From Heliomicrobium modesticaldum Ice1 (GTDB taxonomy: Bacteria; Bacillota; Desulfitobacteriia; Heliobacteriales; Heliobacteriaceae), in contig NC_010337.2 in the NCBI RefSeq assembly GCF_000019165.1, forward strand, positions 661,501 to 725,500: a stretch of DNA of 64,000 nt, written 5' to 3'. The notes beneath the pieces are model-generated. The model did not search any database and was not told the DNA's origin. It worked only from the letters and a program-made list of their open reading frames with translations. Made by a program: the position numbers and the translations under genes. Below, in pieces: positions 52,481 to 64,000 of the stretch; the first letter of the stretch is position 1; the number at the start of each line of letters is the position of its first letter.

Positions 52481-54424
52481 TCAACTGCCCCTATCGGGAG
52501 ATTGCAGCACCGCCATGGTTCGTTCCACTTGCGCCAAGATCGCGCCGGAACGGCGACCCACTTCTATAAAAAAGAGCTGCCCTCGCATCAGATCATGGGC
52601 GAGAGCCTCCCTTTTGTCCGTCACATCGGCCAGGATCGCCGATTGTTCCAACTGATTGACAATAGGCCGGAAGGCAAGCCGCAAAAAGCCCATCGCCTCA
52701 TGATCCCCTTCTATCTGCCGGCGGATCTTATCGAGCTTGCGATAGTATTGGGCAAAGGGCTTGTCAATATCCACCCTGCTCGTCACGAAGCGCTGATACT
52801 TTGCTATCAGCTCCTGCCCTTTTTCGCATCCCTCTAGGATCCGCCGCAGGTGGCCATGCAGATTTTTCAGCTTTTTTACAATCTGGGCGTCCCGCTGCGC
52901 CGCCCCCTGCGAGGCCGCTTGGACCCCCTGGAGAAAGGCGGCCGCAATCGCTTGGTCGGAGGCATTCCTTCCCTGACTGGCTTTCGTCTCCCTCAGCTGC
53001 CCTATCACCGCGGCCAGCGTTGCCACCTCTGTGCCGGGGATGCCGATGCCGCCTTCTGTAGCATTGATATAGCGCCGATCAGGATGCCCCTTAATGAACC
53101 AGCGAAACCACTCGCGAAAGGCAAGCCAGGTCTCCTGCGTATAGGTCTTCTGCCCATAGATGTCGTCCATCTCGATGTAGCGGCTCATGCCGGCTTCGTC
53201 TACAGCGCTGTCGAAGGCGGAACCGGAGATATGGGAGTGATTTCCCGTAAAAGCCAGATCCTGGCCGACGAAAACGATGGGATCGCAACCAGAGCGATAG
53301 GCCAAGACGAGGCCCAGATTAGCCACAGAAGCGCCGACGTTGACAGAAGCGGCGGCCACGTCTACCGCGCCGTCGAGGATGCCGTAGAGCTCCGCCTTGT
53401 CATAAGCCAAAAGGGCGAAGCGCTTTCCTCCGCCTCCGTAGGCCTTCAAAATGGGGGGATAGAGGGTTGCGTCAAAGACGAGCGGCACGTCATCAACAGC
53501 GAGGCCTTGAAAATGGCTGTAGTTGGGCGCTCCTCCATCGATGGACAAGAGGAGATGCGGGCGGATGCCGCGCTGTTGCAGGACGCGCAATGTCGGCGCC
53601 GTAGCGATCAAGAGGCCGTAACGAGCGAATTCGCGGAGGCCTTCCAGGTTCTTCTCCAGCGATGGTCCGGCAGCGATGACGACGGCCGGCAGGGCCGGGA
53701 AGCGCCCATAGAGGTGCTGAACGGGACATGCAGAGAGCACCGCAGGCAGGTTCTGCAAGAAGTTCAGCGTCCAGGTCAGGCTGAAGTAGTTCTCAGTCGC
53801 CACAGCGATCTGCTGGGTCTGGAAGTACTCCTGCAGCGCCCCTTTCACCTGGTCGTAGTAGCCGTCAAAAAGGGCTGTCAGATAATGAAACTCATAGAGT
53901 TGCGCCGTCAGGGCATCGCTGGCCGAAAGGTTCAACCGGTGCATGATGGGGCCGACAGAGGCCGCATCTACATCGATGGCGAAGCGGATGCGGCTGTCTG
54001 CGAGGACGTGCCGCAGATCCACCGTCCACAGGGCCAGCCAGAAGAGGTCGATCGATCGCTCGAAGACCACCATTTTCCCTTGGCTGGGAATGATCTGCCG
54101 GAGCACTTCGATCGTATAACCCAGGCCAAAACCGAAAACGACAAGCAGGCTGGAAGGCGCTCCCGCCACCTCAGCGACCCATTCCCGGGCTTGTTTACAG
54201 GGGTCGACCGGAGAAAGCAAAAACAGGCGCTCCCGACCGGTGTCGACCAACAGCGTCAGGTCGCCACTTTGCGCCGGTTCCACCTGAAAGGGCTGGTTAT
54301 AGGGCGGCTTATACCGGGCCATCCGTTCCGCCAAAGGCGGTTGCACCGTCGCCAAGGCCTGTATATTCCCGGCAAAGATCTCGTCAGACAGGTACTGCAC
54401 ATAGGGCGGCAGGCGCCGTTGCAA
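52481..54424 (-). CDS. DUF115 / Maf-type motility accessory protein
   Basis: A 647-residue cytoplasmic protein of the DUF115 (6-hydroxymethylpterin diphosphokinase MptE-like) family. In flagellated bacteria members called Maf transfer pseudaminic or legionaminic acid to flagellin. Seen here are the family blocks VFGFGLGY, VVIAAGPSLEKNLEGL, SIDGGAPNY, and CDPIVFVGQDLAFTGNHSH, followed by a helical C-terminal third. TTG at 54424 follows AAGGAGG. It starts 20 bp after a polar amino-acid ABC ATPase gene, probably in the same transcript, and lies 3-6 kb from pseF/pseC/pseG, which supports the flagellin-glycosylation role. Confidence 0.82.
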   Translation of the reverse strand: MQRRLPPYVQYLSDEIFAGNIQALATVQPPLAERMARYKPPYNQPFQVEPAQSGDLTLLVDTGRERLFLLSPVDPCKQAREWVAEVAGAPSSLLVVFGFGLGYTIEVLRQIIPSQGKMVVFERSIDLFWLALWTVDLRHVLADSRIRFAIDVDAASVGPIMHRLNLSASDALTAQLYEFHYLTALFDGYYDQVKGALQEYFQTQQIAVATENYFSLTWTLNFLQNLPAVLSACPVQHLYGRFPALPAVVIAAGPSLEKNLEGLREFARYGLLIATAPTLRVLQQRGIRPHLLLSIDGGAPNYSHFQGLAVDDVPLVFDATLYPPILKAYGGGGKRFALLAYDKAELYGILDGAVDVAAASVNVGASVANLGLVLAYRSGCDPIVFVGQDLAFTGNHSHISGSAFDSAVDEAGMSRYIEMDDIYGQKTYTQETWLAFREWFRWFIKGHPDRRYINATEGGIGIPGTEVATLAAVIGQLRETKASQGRNASDQAIAAAFLQGVQAASQGAAQRDAQIVKKLKNLHGHLRRILEGCEKGQELIAKYQRFVTSRVDIDKPFAQYYRKLDKIRRQIEGDHEAMGFLRLAFRPIVNQLEQSAILADVTDKREALAHDLMRGQLFFIEVGRRSGAILAQVERTMAVLQSPDRGS

Positions 54425-57027: not shown

Positions 57028-57122
57028 TTCAGTCGCTTGCGCTGCCGCCACAAGCGCCCGGTGACAATAGTTCCCGCCCCCCTCGGCAGCAGCAACCTTC
57101 AGTCGCTTGCGCTGCCGCCACA
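57028..57122. repeat. 25-bp repeat duplicating the 3' end of pseG
   Basis: Exact copies at 57028-57052 and 57098-57122, 70 bp apart. The upstream-in-gene copy encodes the last residues (CGGSASD) and the stop of pseG; the other is its downstream duplicate. No gene is seen in 57000-57098. Confidence 0.9.
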
Positions 57123-58214
57123 GGCGACCTGTGCGCAGGCATCGCGGAGGATCTCGTCACAACAGCGCCGCGCTCCCTGCCCGTCAACCAGCCGCCTGCC
57201 TCGTTCTGCGGCAGCTTGCGCCCTGTCCGGATCGTCCAAAAGAGCCGCCAACTGCCGCGCCACCTCATCAACAGGCAGCGGCGCCGGCAGCAACGTCCTG
57301 CCAGCGTTGCCGCCTGTCGTATCCGCTCTGTCGTCAAGGCGATCGACGGCAAAGAGCGGCACTGCCGCCTGCCGGCGACAGACGGTCAAGGCTGCCGGCA
57401 CCTGATTGTCGGCCTGTATAACCACGGCAGCGGGAACGCCGGCAGCCAGCAGTTCCTGCAGGGTTACTCCCGCAGCCGTAACGGCCAGATCCGCTGTCGG
57501 AAGGAGTGTGGCCATGTCGGCAGGCGGGCGATAGGGCCGAAACCAAGCGACGCGGCCATAGGCTGCGGGAAAATCCATGTAGGGGCCGATGATGACGTGG
57601 GCCTCAAAAAGACGCCCTGTCGCAGCCACCTGTTCCAGCGCCTGCAGCGTTCGCGGCAGGTGACCCAAGGGATCGCCGCCGCCCAAGGTGACGACGATCT
57701 GTCCTATCGCGCCTCGGCGCCTTTTTTGCTCCCGCAACAGACCAACAGCCGTCACAGCGCGGCGAAGCGGCGTATAGGCAGGGCCCAGAAGCGCCCTCCC
57801 CGGCCGGAGGAAGCGGTAGCGCTCCCCGGACGCCGCCAGTCCCGCATTGATCACCAATTGACAGTCCATCGGAAAACTGTTTTTATCATCCAGATAGACC
57901 ACAAAAAGACCGGCCGAGCGAAGCGCTCCCAGCGTCTGCGGCAGGATCCGGTAGGAATCGACGACCAAGATGGACGCCCCCTGCGCCAAGAGCCAAGCGG
58001 CCCAGCTCTCCGGCGCCGCGTCGAGAGAGCCCGTCCCTTGCGGCTGCCGCCAGAGAAAAAGGCCTTTTGTCAGCGCTTCGACGGCCCCATCGCGCCGGCC
58101 GACAGCGAGCACCCGATAACCCCGCTCAGCAAAAGCCTCAGCCAAAGCAGCACTGCGCATGGCATGGCCAAGCCCAACGCCGGGGCCGGCATCAAAATAA
58201 AAGGCGACTGGCAA
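57099..58214 (-). CDS. pseG: UDP-2,4-diacetamido-2,4,6-trideoxy-altropyranose hydrolase
   Basis: PseG removes UDP from the third intermediate of pseudaminic-acid synthesis, a sugar used to decorate flagellin. The 371-residue glycosyltransferase-B-fold protein shows the N-terminal FDAGPGVGLGHAMRS, in which the GxGHxxR segment carries the catalytic His. Further family blocks are VVDSYRIL, VTLGGGDPLG and the acceptor-site TAAGVTLQELLAAGVPA. TTG at 58214 follows GGGGAGGG. It is last in the pseF-pseC-pseG run. pseB, pseH and pseI are not in the window. Confidence 0.85.
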   Translation of the reverse strand: MPVAFYFDAGPGVGLGHAMRSAALAEAFAERGYRVLAVGRRDGAVEALTKGLFLWRQPQGTGSLDAAPESWAAWLLAQGASILVVDSYRILPQTLGALRSAGLFVVYLDDKNSFPMDCQLVINAGLAASGERYRFLRPGRALLGPAYTPLRRAVTAVGLLREQKRRRGAIGQIVVTLGGGDPLGHLPRTLQALEQVAATGRLFEAHVIIGPYMDFPAAYGRVAWFRPYRPPADMATLLPTADLAVTAAGVTLQELLAAGVPAAVVIQADNQVPAALTVCRRQAAVPLFAVDRLDDRADTTGGNAGRTLLPAPLPVDEVARQLAALLDDPDRAQAAAERGRRLVDGQGARRCCDEILRDACAQVACGGSASD

Positions 58215-58260
58215 AAAAGCCGTCCCTCCCCTCTCTTCGACAAGCCGAAAGGCTCAGCGC

Positions 58261-58434
58261 CAGTTCGCCCCTCCTTCGCGGAGGGCGGCCCCCAGCTCAG
58301 CGGCAGTTCGCCCCTCCTTCGCGGAGGGCGGCGCTCCAGCTCAGCGCCAGTTCGCCCCTCCTTCGCGGAGGGCGGCCCCCAGCTCAGCGCCAGTTCGCCC
58401 CTCCTTCGCGGAGGGCGGCGCTCCAGCTCAGCGG
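58261..58434. repeat. Four tandem 43-44 bp units with internal hairpin
   Basis: Units start at 58261, 58304, 58348 and 58391. Each has a CCCTCC-TTCGC-GGAGGG hairpin and ends with the CAGCTCAGCG segment that is the pseC stop region (TGA on the minus strand) in the last unit. They fill the pseC-pseG spacer, so the transcript would carry four hairpins between the two genes. Confidence 0.95.
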
Positions 58435-59625
58435 CAGATCTTTTCTATCCCTTCCCGCAGGACAGCGATCACCCGCTCCTGCTGCCCATCGGTCAGGCCA
58501 TAGTAGAGGGGCAGCGAAAGGGCCTGGCGATAATGCTGCTCCGCCACGGGACAAAGACCCGGCCCGGTAACCGAGGCGCTGATAGTAAGGATGGCGGTAG
58601 ACGGGCAGGTAGTGAACATTCACAAGGATCCCTCGTGCCCGCAGATGATCGAAGAGCTGTTTGCGCCGGAAGCCGTCGCCATCGTCGCGCAAGCCGATCA
58701 CATAGAGATGCCAGGCTGAAAGACAATCAGCGCGGCGGCCGGGCAACCGGATTTGCCCCTTAAGATCCGCCAGCGCCTCGTCATAGCGGGCGGCCAGCTC
58801 CCGCCGGCGCCGGAGAAAGCGATCCAGCTTGGCCAGCTGACTCATCCCCAGCGCTGCCTGGATATCGGTCAAGCGATAGTTGTAACCGAGTTCCTGCATC
58901 TCATAATACCATCCGCCGTCATCGCTCCCCAGCTCATCGCGCAGACGGGTGATGCCGTGGGAACGGAACCGACGCAACCGCCGCGCCAATTCCTGATCGG
59001 CTGTCACCACCATCCCCCCTTCACCGGTGGCGATATGTTTGACTGGATGAAAGGAAAAACAGGTCAGGGGAGAAAGGGCGCCCACCGGTTTTCCCCGGTA
59101 CTCCGCCCCCAGGGCATGGGCGCCGTCTTCGATGACGATAAGGCCCCAGCGGGCGGCCACCTGATGAATGGTCTCCATCGAAGCCGGCAAGCCGGCGAAG
59201 TGAACGGCCACAATGGCTTTAGTGCGGCGAGAGATGCAGCTCTCCAGCCTATTCCCATTGAGGTTTCCCGTGTCAAGCTCCACATCGGCAAAAACCGGCT
59301 TCGCCCCAAGGTAAAGGGCTGCGTTGGCTGTCGCCGCAAAGGTGTTGGCCGGCACGATCACCTCATCACCGGGGCCGATGCCTGCCGCCGCATAGGCGCC
59401 GTGCAGGGCCGCCGTCCCAGACGAAAAGGCGACGCCATAGGGCGCCTGCACCTGCTGAGCCAAACGAGACTCAAAAGCATCCACAACCGGCCCGGTCGTC
59501 AGGTAATCGCCGCGCAGCACAGCCGCGACAGCGGCCACATCATCGTCATCGATCCATTGACGGGCATAGGGGATCGGGCCGTCGACGTCTTTGCCGTTGC
59601 TCATCGGAGATGTTGCGCCTCCCAT
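58428..59625 (-). CDS. pseC: PseC-type aminotransferase, frameshifted near the 3' end
   Basis: PLP-dependent DegT/DnrJ-family enzyme (UDP-4-amino-4,6-dideoxy-altrosamine transaminase) of pseudaminic-acid synthesis. Motifs include FSSGTAALHGAY, the PLP Asp region VIEDGAHALGA and the Schiff-base Lys in SFHPVKHIATGEGG. Up to about 58570 the frame is normal and reaches RLGYRAG. Then similarity jumps frame: the expected end (LCPVAEQHYR, SLPLYYGLTD, EGIEKICR) is read in another frame to a TGA at 58428-58430. Without correction the protein would end at 58384 with a foreign tail. ATG 59625 follows AAGGGGAGG and overlaps pseF by 25 bp. Confidence 0.8.
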
Positions 59626-60380
59626 CGGTCATCCTCCCCTTGCGGCAGCAACTCCTCGTCACTGACAGCTTTCTGCCGGACAGACTGATTCAAGAGCGCC
59701 CACTGGGGATGCTCGTCCAGCCAGGCAAGCACCTCCGGCACAGCGATGATCCGGCCGGGACGGTAAAAGCGCTCGTAGATCTCAGCCAAGAGTTGATAGT
59801 CCAGAGGCTCGTCTACACAGAGCCGGTACCGGCTTCGCCGGTATGGTCCGGGGAGCTGCCAGGAGCCGGTGCGAAAAAGACCGGAGTGATACAGATGAAA
59901 AGTGACATGTTCCCGCGCCGCCGGGTAGCGGCCCTGGCGATGGGCCCTTTCCAAAGCCTCCCGCGTAAAGACCTCCGTATCAAGACCGCGCGGCCCGCCT
60001 TCTACAGACAGGTAGTCGAGCGAGCGGTTGCGGAATTCGCCGATCGCCGCTCCCACCACATCGGGGTCGATCAGAGGGCAATCAGCGGTGATGCGGACAA
60101 TCACCGCTGCATCCACCTTTTGGGCACAGCCCACATAGCGAGCAAGGACATCGGTCTCACTGCCGCGGAAAACAAAGACACCCCATTGGCGCGCCGCGTC
60201 GGCGATGGGATCATCAGCCGTCCCATCACCGGTAGCAACCGCCAGTACCTGGGCCTCCCGTACCCGTTTTAACCGTTCCAGCGTATGCCACAAGGCCGGC
60301 TGCCCGGCCAGCGGCGCCAACACCTTGCCGGGCAGCCGGGTCGACCCCATACGCGCTTGCACGATGATGGCCGTCGACAT
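59601..60380 (-). CDS. pseF: CMP-sugar synthetase-like cytidylyltransferase (PseF/SpsF type)
   Basis: A 259-residue protein starting MSTAIIVQARMGSTRLPGK, the nucleotide-binding signature of this cytidylyltransferase family. Later blocks are VRITADCPLIDP and the metal/sugar region LDTEVFTREALE with CVDEPLDY. Family members activate pseudaminic acid with CTP (PseF) or act in spore-coat polysaccharide synthesis (SpsF); the pseC and pseG neighbours favour the first. ATG 60380 has AGGAGG upstream; the frame extends to 60443 without support. Its stop overlaps pseC. Confidence 0.82.
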   Translation of the reverse strand: MSTAIIVQARMGSTRLPGKVLAPLAGQPALWHTLERLKRVREAQVLAVATGDGTADDPIADAARQWGVFVFRGSETDVLARYVGCAQKVDAAVIVRITADCPLIDPDVVGAAIGEFRNRSLDYLSVEGGPRGLDTEVFTREALERAHRQGRYPAAREHVTFHLYHSGLFRTGSWQLPGPYRRSRYRLCVDEPLDYQLLAEIYERFYRPGRIIAVPEVLAWLDEHPQWALLNQSVRQKAVSDEELLPQGEDDRWEAQHLR

Positions 60381-60537
60381 CAGCGGAACACCTCCTGATT
60401 TTATCGATTCATCCAAACCGCGGTCAGCCGACGGCAGCGTCATGCCCCCACCGCCAGATCCTTTGCAGACATGACCTCCAGCAACGTTCGATCAGGCGCT
60501 CCCGGCTTTTTGGGGCTTTTTTTAGCCGGTGCAAATC

Positions 60538-60813: not shown

Positions 60814-61025
60814 TTAAATGCAATTCCTTTCTTAAGATGGTTTTTCGAACAAGCCCCATCAGCCCCTGTTGTACCCCGTTTTCAACTCCCCCTCCAGTCT
60901 CCTCTATGATAGTATTTTCCTATGACATCGACAATCCAGTATCTTTACCGTTCCTCAAGGGGCCCGCTTCAGATCACGATAATAAAAACATCGATATCTA
61001 CGCCATCGGAAGGGATGGATTCGGA

Positions 61026-64000
61026 ATGCGCATCCAGTCACCCTCTACGGGGACCACACGCTCGGACATGGAACAACCCCTTGAACTCCGACAAGGAGAC
61101 GTATATACGGGAACAATCAAAAAAATCACCGCTTCTCAAGAGGGAATCGTTCAGATCCGCGGCCAGGAGCAACAGGTCCGCTTTGAGGGCGCCTTGCCAA
61201 AAAGCGACCGTTTTACTCTGCAAGTTACCGCCGTCGATGGCGACGTAGCCCGGATCAAAGTCATTGAGGATCTGCCATCCGGCGCTGCCGCCACTCGTCA
61301 CAGCGAAGGCAACATCGGCCGTCTCCTGCGGACCTTCGGCGTATCGCCTTCTGAAGAACTCTCTCAAGCCGCCCGGCAGATCATCGAGCGCGGACGCCCC
61401 TTGACCCAGGAAACGGTGCAAGAACTGAACGCGTTTTTTGAAAAAACACCGGGCCCTGCAGCGGACAAGATCGACACGGTCCAGGCACTGCTCCGCAAAA
61501 ACCTGGAGATCACGGCCCCCCAGTTGAAAGCCGTCCATGAAGCCTTACACGGCCGCCCCATCGGCCAGGTGCTCACCGACTTGGTCAAGCAACTGGATCC
61601 AACATGGCAACTGCCTGCCACCGTCCGCCAAGAACCCGACCTGGCCAAAGCGATCCGGCAACTCCAGTCGACCGTCGCCGCCAACAGAGACATCGCGACA
61701 GATCTCGCGAGCAAGGTGCAGCAGCAACTGGACAGCGCCCGCCAACTGCAACAACAAGGCTACGAGAGCTTAGCCCGGGAAAACCTCGCCCGTTCACTGG
61801 AACAACTGGCCCGGCAGCTGCCTGACCGCACCGCTGCCCCGGCAGCTGCGACCGATCATGCCCAAACATTGCAAACCCAACCCATGCAACCGCCACAAGG
61901 TGCGCCGACACCGGCAGCTTTCGCCGCAGCCTTTGCCGCCCCGACAACCCAGCCCCAACCAGCCCCGCCAGCACAACAACCGCCAACAACGCCCGCCGCC
62001 CTTCCGTCGGCCATCGTTCCACCAACCACCACGCCGACAGCCGCCACAACAGCTGCTACAACAGCCGCCACAGCAGCCGCTACAGCAACTGCCACAACAG
62101 CCGCCACAGCAGCCACTACAACAGCTGCAACAACCGCCACAGCAGCTAACACAGCAGCCGCCACAACAGCCACTACAACAGCTGCCACAACAGCTGCCAC
62201 AGCAATTGCCACAACAGCCACTACAACAGCTGCAGCAACCGCCACGGCAGCTACCACAGCAGCCGCCACAACAGCCGCCACAACAGCCACTACAACAGCT
62301 GCCACAGCAACAGAACAGATCGCCCAAGTCCTTTCCAGGCTCTCTCCCCACAGCCCGATCAACGAAGTGATCGAGACAGTTCAGGAACTCTCCCGCCAGT
62401 GGGCTGCCGACGATAAAATTCCCCGCCCTGCGATCACCACCCTGGAGCGATCCCTTTCGGAGGCTCGCATCTACGCCGCCATGGGCCGCCAGTCGGACAG
62501 CTTGGAACGGCTGCAGCAGGCGCTCTCTGCGACAGCGAAAGCCATTGCCCCGACCGTCCCTGCCACCACCACTCCCCCGACTACCGCCACACCTACGACT
62601 TCCACCAATCCCACCACCACCACCACTCCCACCACTCCCCCGGCTTCGGCGCAAGTAGGAGCAACCCGTCCGTCGCTCCCTCAAGGCATCCTCACCGATG
62701 CCGCCGCCACAGTCCGCCAAGAACCCGACCTGGCCAAAGCGATCCGGCAACTCCAGTCGACCGTCGCCGCCAACAGAGACATCGCGACAGATCTCGCGAG
62801 CAAGGTGCAGCAGCAACTGGACAGCGCCCGCCACCTGCAACAACAAGGCTACGAAAGCTTAGCCCGGGAAAACCTCGCCCGTTCACTGGAACAACTGGCC
62901 CGGCAGCTGCCTGACCGCACCGCTGCCCCGGCAGCTGCGACCGGTCAAGCCCAAACATTGCAAACTCAACCCATGCAACCGCCGCAAGGTGCGCCGACAC
63001 CGGCAGCTTCCACCGCAGCCTTTGCCGCCCCGACAACCCAGCCCCAACCAGCCCCGCCAGCACAACAACCGCCAACAACGCCCGCCGCCCTTCCGTCGGC
63101 CATCGTTCCACCAACCACCACGCCGACAGCCGCTACAACAGCCGCTACAACAGCCACAACAGCCACTACAACAGCCGCAGCAACCGCCACAGCAGCTGCC
63201 ACAACAGCCACTACAACAGCTGCCACAACAGCCACTACAGCAGCCGCCACAGCAGCCACTACAACAGCCGCCACAACAGCCACTACAACAGCCGCAGCAA
63301 CCGCCACAGCAGCTGCCACAACAGCCACTACAACAGCTGCCACAACAGCCACTACAGCAGCCGCCACAGCAACAGAACAGATCGCCCAAATCCTCTCCAA
63401 TCTCTCTCCCCACAGCCCGATCAACGAAGTGATTTCGGCCACACAAACCCTCTCGCGTCAACTCTCTACCGGAACCCCGAAAGAAGGTGCCCTCGCCTCC
63501 TCCTTAAACCGCGCCCTATCAGAAGCCCAGATCCTCGCCACTATCGGCCAAGAACAAAAAGGCAAAGAGCGGCTCAGCCAAGGACTGACCCAAACACTCC
63601 ATGCCCTGCTGCGACTTGCCCCTACCCCCTCTCCGTCCAGCGCCGCCCCCTCCCCTATGACCGACAAGGCCACGACCTTGCCAACCCCACCTACAGCGGG
63701 TACCTTTGATCCCCCAGAAGCCCCGCTCCCTCCTGCACCATTAACCGAAGAAAACGATAGCACCGCCATCGTCAACAAAGCCTATAAAGACGCCCTCGCA
63801 ATGGGCGGCATCGCATTGCCTGCCAAAAACTACATGATCACCGAGATCACCCGCCAACTCAACCAGGCCGCCCAAGACTTTCGGGACCTCAAGCGAGAAG
63901 TCACCCGCAACATCGACAACATCCGCCAGATCGTACAGAATCATCGCAACAACGTCTTGCCCATGGTCAAACCTCTGCTTGAATCGACGATCGACCTCTT
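61026..64000 (+). CDS. FliK-like hook-length control protein, 3' end outside window
   Basis: One frame stays open from ATG 61026 to the window end: 991 residues, no stop. The N-terminus has a small beta domain (LRQGDVYTGTIKKI, VQIRGQEQQVRFEG, DRFTLQVTAV) typical of clostridial FliK-like proteins. A helical module follows (LLRTFGVSPSEELSQAARQI, LRKNLEITAPQLKAVHEAL). Residues about 200-435 and 563-800 are two copies of one unit: a conserved helix, a Pro/Gln linker and an Ala/Thr-only array. The last visible part (YMITEITRQLNQAAQDFRDL, then KREVTRNIDNI) is again helical. FliK measures hook length, so length variation could matter. GGAAGGG lies 11 bases upstream of the ATG. Confidence 0.72.
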   Translation, partial: MRIQSPSTGTTRSDMEQPLELRQGDVYTGTIKKITASQEGIVQIRGQEQQVRFEGALPKSDRFTLQVTAVDGDVARIKVIEDLPSGAAATRHSEGNIGRLLRTFGVSPSEELSQAARQIIERGRPLTQETVQELNAFFEKTPGPAADKIDTVQALLRKNLEITAPQLKAVHEALHGRPIGQVLTDLVKQLDPTWQLPATVRQEPDLAKAIRQLQSTVAANRDIATDLASKVQQQLDSARQLQQQGYESLARENLARSLEQLARQLPDRTAAPAAATDHAQTLQTQPMQPPQGAPTPAAFAAAFAAPTTQPQPAPPAQQPPTTPAALPSAIVPPTTTPTAATTAATTAATAAATATATTAATAATTTAATTATAANTAAATTATTTAATTAATAIATTATTTAAATATAATTAAATTAATTATTTAATATEQIAQVLSRLSPHSPINEVIETVQELSRQWAADDKIPRPAITTLERSLSEARIYAAMGRQSDSLERLQQALSATAKAIAPTVPATTTPPTTATPTTSTNPTTTTTPTTPPASAQVGATRPSLPQGILTDAAATVRQEPDLAKAIRQLQSTVAANRDIATDLASKVQQQLDSARHLQQQGYESLARENLARSLEQLARQLPDRTAAPAAATGQAQTLQTQPMQPPQGAPTPAASTAAFAAPTTQPQPAPPAQQPPTTPAALPSAIVPPTTTPTAATTAATTATTATTTAAATATAAATTATTTAATTATTAAATAATTTAATTATTTAAATATAAATTATTTAATTATTAAATATEQIAQILSNLSPHSPINEVISATQTLSRQLSTGTPKEGALASSLNRALSEAQILATIGQEQKGKERLSQGLTQTLHALLRLAPTPSPSSAAPSPMTDKATTLPTPPTAGTFDPPEAPLPPAPLTEENDSTAIVNKAYKDALAMGGIALPAKNYMITEITRQLNQAAQDFRDLKREVTRNIDNIRQIVQNHRNNVLPMVKPLLESTIDL
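61622..63430 (+). repeat. In-frame 1.09-kb tandem duplication with Ala/Thr minisatellites
   Basis: The segment starting at 61622 recurs 1089 bp later (62711), nearly identical for about 420 bp. Each copy leads into a codon array of GCN/ACN: 62037-62310 in copy A and 63126-63372 in copy B, B being 27 bp shorter. Copy B holds an internal 117-bp tandem (63174 and 63291). After the arrays the copies share ATEQIAQ and SPHSPINEV, then diverge. All steps are multiples of three. Confidence 0.92.

Follow-up and report, generated by a model that had tools for sequence, protein, structure and literature searches.

The 64,000-nucleotide stretch of the Heliomicrobium modesticaldum Ice1T genome analysed here (the window) carries a group of minus-strand genes for flagellin sugar modification. 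Its central member is an open reading frame at 58384-59625 (413 aa, frame 0), which in a profile search matched the PseC model TIGR03588 with 446.3 bits over model positions 2-345. The model has 380 positions and a curated cut-off of 423.5 bits, so that the frame-0 ORF alone scored as a PseC, the UDP-4-amino-4,6-dideoxy-N-acetyl-beta-L-altrosamine transaminase. The invariant residues of the family are kept in it, and within the conserved core K196, which we take to be the catalytic PLP lysine, was the same in all 24 aligned sequences. On the same strand lie a pseG-like hydrolase gene (57099-58214; TIGR03590, 114 bits against a cut-off of 153.55), a gene for a Maf/PseD-like flagellin modification protein (52481-54424; NF050051, 97.6 bits against a cut-off of 670) and, adjoining pseC, a cytidylyltransferase-like gene (59601-60443). 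The last is a candidate pseF, which matched KdsB-like NCBIfam models below their cut-offs and did not match any Pse model. The assignment of these genes to a pseudaminic-acid set in the original prediction is supported by PseC, PseH and PseI, all above their model cut-offs; the PseG, PseB and Maf/PseD-like proteins of H. modesticaldum matched theirs below the cut-offs.

The PseC similarity does not end with frame 0. An overlapping minus-strand ORF in the next frame (58428-58619) matched positions 344-378 of the 380 in the PseC model (E 4e-6). A whole-genome PseC search returned the same two pieces, split across two frames, and tblastn with either of two congeners (G003 and G004) gave an identical split. 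Because the second piece begins in the family model where the first one ends and tblastn agrees, chance is not an issue here. Aligned with the DNA of both congeners, the deposited gene has exactly one extra base (a one-base gap in each of them), which falls within 58563-58567, on the minus strand ACCGGGCC, and is not assignable to a single position because it is ambiguous within the short C and G runs there. The deposited pseC thus carries a true one-base frame break near its 3' end. The main part in frame 0, with K196, occupies 58571-59625, and the C-terminal part, conserved in relatives, continues in the next frame over 58428-58562 to the normal stop at 58428-58430. Counted from 58571, the proper frame runs for 47 codons to its stop and frame 0 for 62; frame 0 would be translated into an out-of-frame tail of nearly 60 codons (58384-58562). 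In the deposited sequence, then, the C-terminal end of PseC is not in the same reading frame as the rest. A frame switch near 58560-58572, followed by an intact ending with its own stop, had been predicted from the letters alone, and both parts of that prediction were borne out; the description of the site as G-rich holds only loosely, as the runs there are just two or three bases long.

No other genome compared here shares the break; it is confined to this record. PseC was found above the cut-off in five of nine family genomes, H. modesticaldum itself being counted among the nine, and in each of the other four carriers (G002, the congeners G003 and G004, and G006) the gene lies in one open frame. 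Among 80 relatives from a genome collection (the best 80 of the 267 entries encoding one), all 80 continue in frame for 41-61 codons past the position of the break and so differ from the window pseC, the C-terminal end of which is in another frame. A stop inside the match was flagged in five of these best 80, in every case before the start codon. A backup PseC replacing the broken copy was considered and rejected, since the search of the whole H. modesticaldum genome revealed no second PseC at E <= 0.001.

The state of the 3' piece bears on the age of the lesion. The parts before and after the break were compared separately, each in its own frame. Against G003, G004 and Heliobacterium mobile (41, 41 and 42 codons, respectively) the 3' piece had pS values of 0.85, 0.63 and 0.83 and pN values of 0.28, 0.27 and 0.22 (Fisher P = 1e-7, 5e-4 and 1e-9). 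Its dN to the same three genomes (0.35, 0.33 and 0.26) did not exceed the span of values among the intact relatives themselves (0.18, 0.42 and 0.34). By these substitution patterns the tail is still under purifying selection and has not decayed. We detected no other lesion in pseC: there is a single one-base difference and no stop codon elsewhere in the gene. The further lesions and relaxed constraint of a pseudogene by accumulated decay are therefore lacking, and the view of the original prediction that the gene looks functional in all other respects is upheld by its score above the PseC cut-off, the invariant residues and this single difference. As the tail remains conserved when read in the proper frame, the frame break is either very young or absent from the organism, and tail conservation does not tell these two apart. 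In this the pseC break is an ordinary finding of an already known kind, the isolated single-base frameshift in one genome record, due to an error or to a recent pseudogene; like other members of that class it involves one base in an otherwise intact, private gene, and we see no difference between the class and the present case.

The explanation that we prefer, while giving it about an even chance of being right, is a base-calling error. By this account pseC, encoding the aminotransferase step of pseudaminic-acid synthesis, would be a normal, unbroken gene throughout the lineage, and the deposited Ice1T sequence would be one base too long near the 3' end of the gene, most likely because a short GC-rich stretch was miscalled or wrongly resolved in the consensus. 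The extra base would then be absent from the organism. This reading is supported by the single difference in pseC, the purifying selection on the tail, the 80 in-frame relatives, the lack of a backup PseC and the open frames of the remaining Pse genes, and the flagellar motility tabulated for Ice1T (PMC9147875) fits a working Pse pathway if pseudaminic acid is needed for motility here, although motility is no proof that it is being made. The quality of the record argues in the opposite direction. To judge it, a frameshift census filtered by strand was made over two sampled parts of the genome (203,499 and 160,000 bases; 363 kb), of which the first was chosen for holding the window, so that the sample is not random. 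The queries were conserved ORFs from G003 and G004 (110 and 142, respectively, in part one, 185 and 149 in part two) and overlap between the two congeners in the genes tested. When the rows were judged by eye, no isolated frameshift other than that of pseC was found in the 363 kb sampled. The only internal frame breaks in real genes were those of pseC and of a radical-SAM-like gene, and the remaining rows either opened a stop-to-stop ORF with a short first piece or sat at gene edges. The absence of other isolated frameshifts indicates that the record is fairly clean and errors in it rare. A hairpin at the break site as a sequencing trap was rejected, because the fold (-8.4 kcal/mol, z -0.70) was weak and not above shuffles, leaving no special trap visible. 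The literature searched on modesticaldum yielded no independent sequence of the pseC locus; Table 1 of PMC7143216 gives the Ice1T genome as 3,075,407 bp with 70 transposases and 8 putative pseudogenes. The break is of consequence chiefly for annotation: a single base would make the sole PseC of the model heliobacterium count as broken and its pseudaminic-acid pathway as incomplete.

A real, very recent one-base insertion in the sequenced Ice1T culture, halting the pathway at the aminotransferase step, is a serious candidate as well, to which we give somewhat less than an even chance. PseC would then end in an unrelated tail in place of its final 45 or so residues. Such a mutation would agree with the otherwise clean record, with the fact that pseC is probably dispensable in culture, and with the rearranged surroundings, where there are transposase genes and, about 23 kb away, a truly decayed radical-SAM-like gene. 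The structure predicted by AlphaFold for the frame-0 product from the 24-sequence alignment points the same way. Its core was mostly at a confidence of 80-98, weaker at 221-250 (71, 55, 59) and at the N-terminus, whereas the block means from residue 351 on were 67, 61, 54, 37, 42, 71 and 67, so that the replacement tail, mostly of low predicted confidence, is probably not a proper C-terminal end. On the other hand, since there is neither a second lesion nor relaxation in the tail, a real mutation could only be a very recent one; none of the other Pse genes was seen to be broken, and Ice1T is listed with flagellar motility. Should the insertion be genuine, flagellin glycosylation may have been lost from the Ice1T reference culture. 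The present evidence does not separate a base-calling error from a real recent null mutation, and with either the break looks like an ordinary event and not a genetic switch. Of the three options raised originally, a sequencing indel and fresh inactivation thus both stand, and a phase-variable switch has become unlikely in view of the short runs and the in-frame relatives.

Such a switch, turning flagellin glycosylation on and off by slipped-strand mispairing, has a precedent in Campylobacter jejuni, where the flagellin glycosylation locus includes such cases as Cj1295 with its 8 or 9 Gs (PMC3068675). The kind of pathway and the one-base frame change are shared with pseC, but the pseC site has no homopolymer tract. 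Base runs at 58558-58567 are only 2-3 long, which makes switching driven by slippage unlikely; the long simple-sequence tract of a contingency gene is missing from the frame change, the longest run in pseC (C6) lies elsewhere in the gene, and the 203 kb counted contain no G or C run above 7. The relatives, too, are uniformly in frame (the best 80 of 267 and the four family genomes). We therefore rejected phase variation, the tracts being too short, and consider it very improbable. Least probable of all is programmed +1 ribosomal frameshifting: in its favour, both frames are open and conserved before and beyond the site, but by eye the junction has neither a stop codon nor a recognised shift site, frame 0 reads on through dozens of codons without a stop, and no relative with an intact gene needs such a shift, so this was rejected as well. 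The broader proposal that the two pseC frames are either joined in translation or reversibly switched at the short GC motif, and so tune flagellin glycosylation in Ice1T, is in our view highly improbable; if true, it would amount to an uncommon form of control that works with no homopolymer tract.

Several other features of the region were recorded. A tandem array of 43/44-bp units (58252-58437; 4.3 copies, with a hairpin-like core) fills the gap between pseC and pseG and overlaps the last pseC codons, and the out-of-frame tail runs into it. It has only local copies in the genome and is absent from the aligned G003 and G004 sequence. The array was rejected as a cause of the break: save for the last few codons it sits downstream of where the gene properly stops, and its fold does not clearly stand out from that of shuffled sequence (z -1.49; 16 of 200 shuffles did equally well). 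At 57028-57125, about 25 to 30 bases of the pseG end are duplicated just downstream.

Compared with G003 and G004, the order of the Pse genes has been rearranged in part. Unlike in these congeners, the candidate pseF is parted from the remaining Pse cluster by an 8.4-kb segment. This segment contains an ORF at 60837-64000, continuing to C1:726620, of 1459 aa from stop to stop and rich in Ala/Thr/Pro repeats, for which no match appeared in the congener stretches compared. Outside the window, the gene that we take by its motif to be radical-SAM-like (C1:743305-744596) has several in-frame stops and a frameshift, and is open in G004 (C5:101281-102759). Near it are two 551-aa ORFs of equal size and layout, one at 739683-741335, which Pfam identifies as a DDE transposase, and the other at 746833-748485. 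PseI (C1:734719-735909), also outside the window, carries about 30 additional residues in frame as a glycine-rich loop, which is nearly absent in G003 and present with a different sequence in G004. Finally, the window pseC is slightly closer to that of H. mobile (72% aa) than to those of the two congeners (69 and 67%), a similarity that may hint at exchange in the glycan region.
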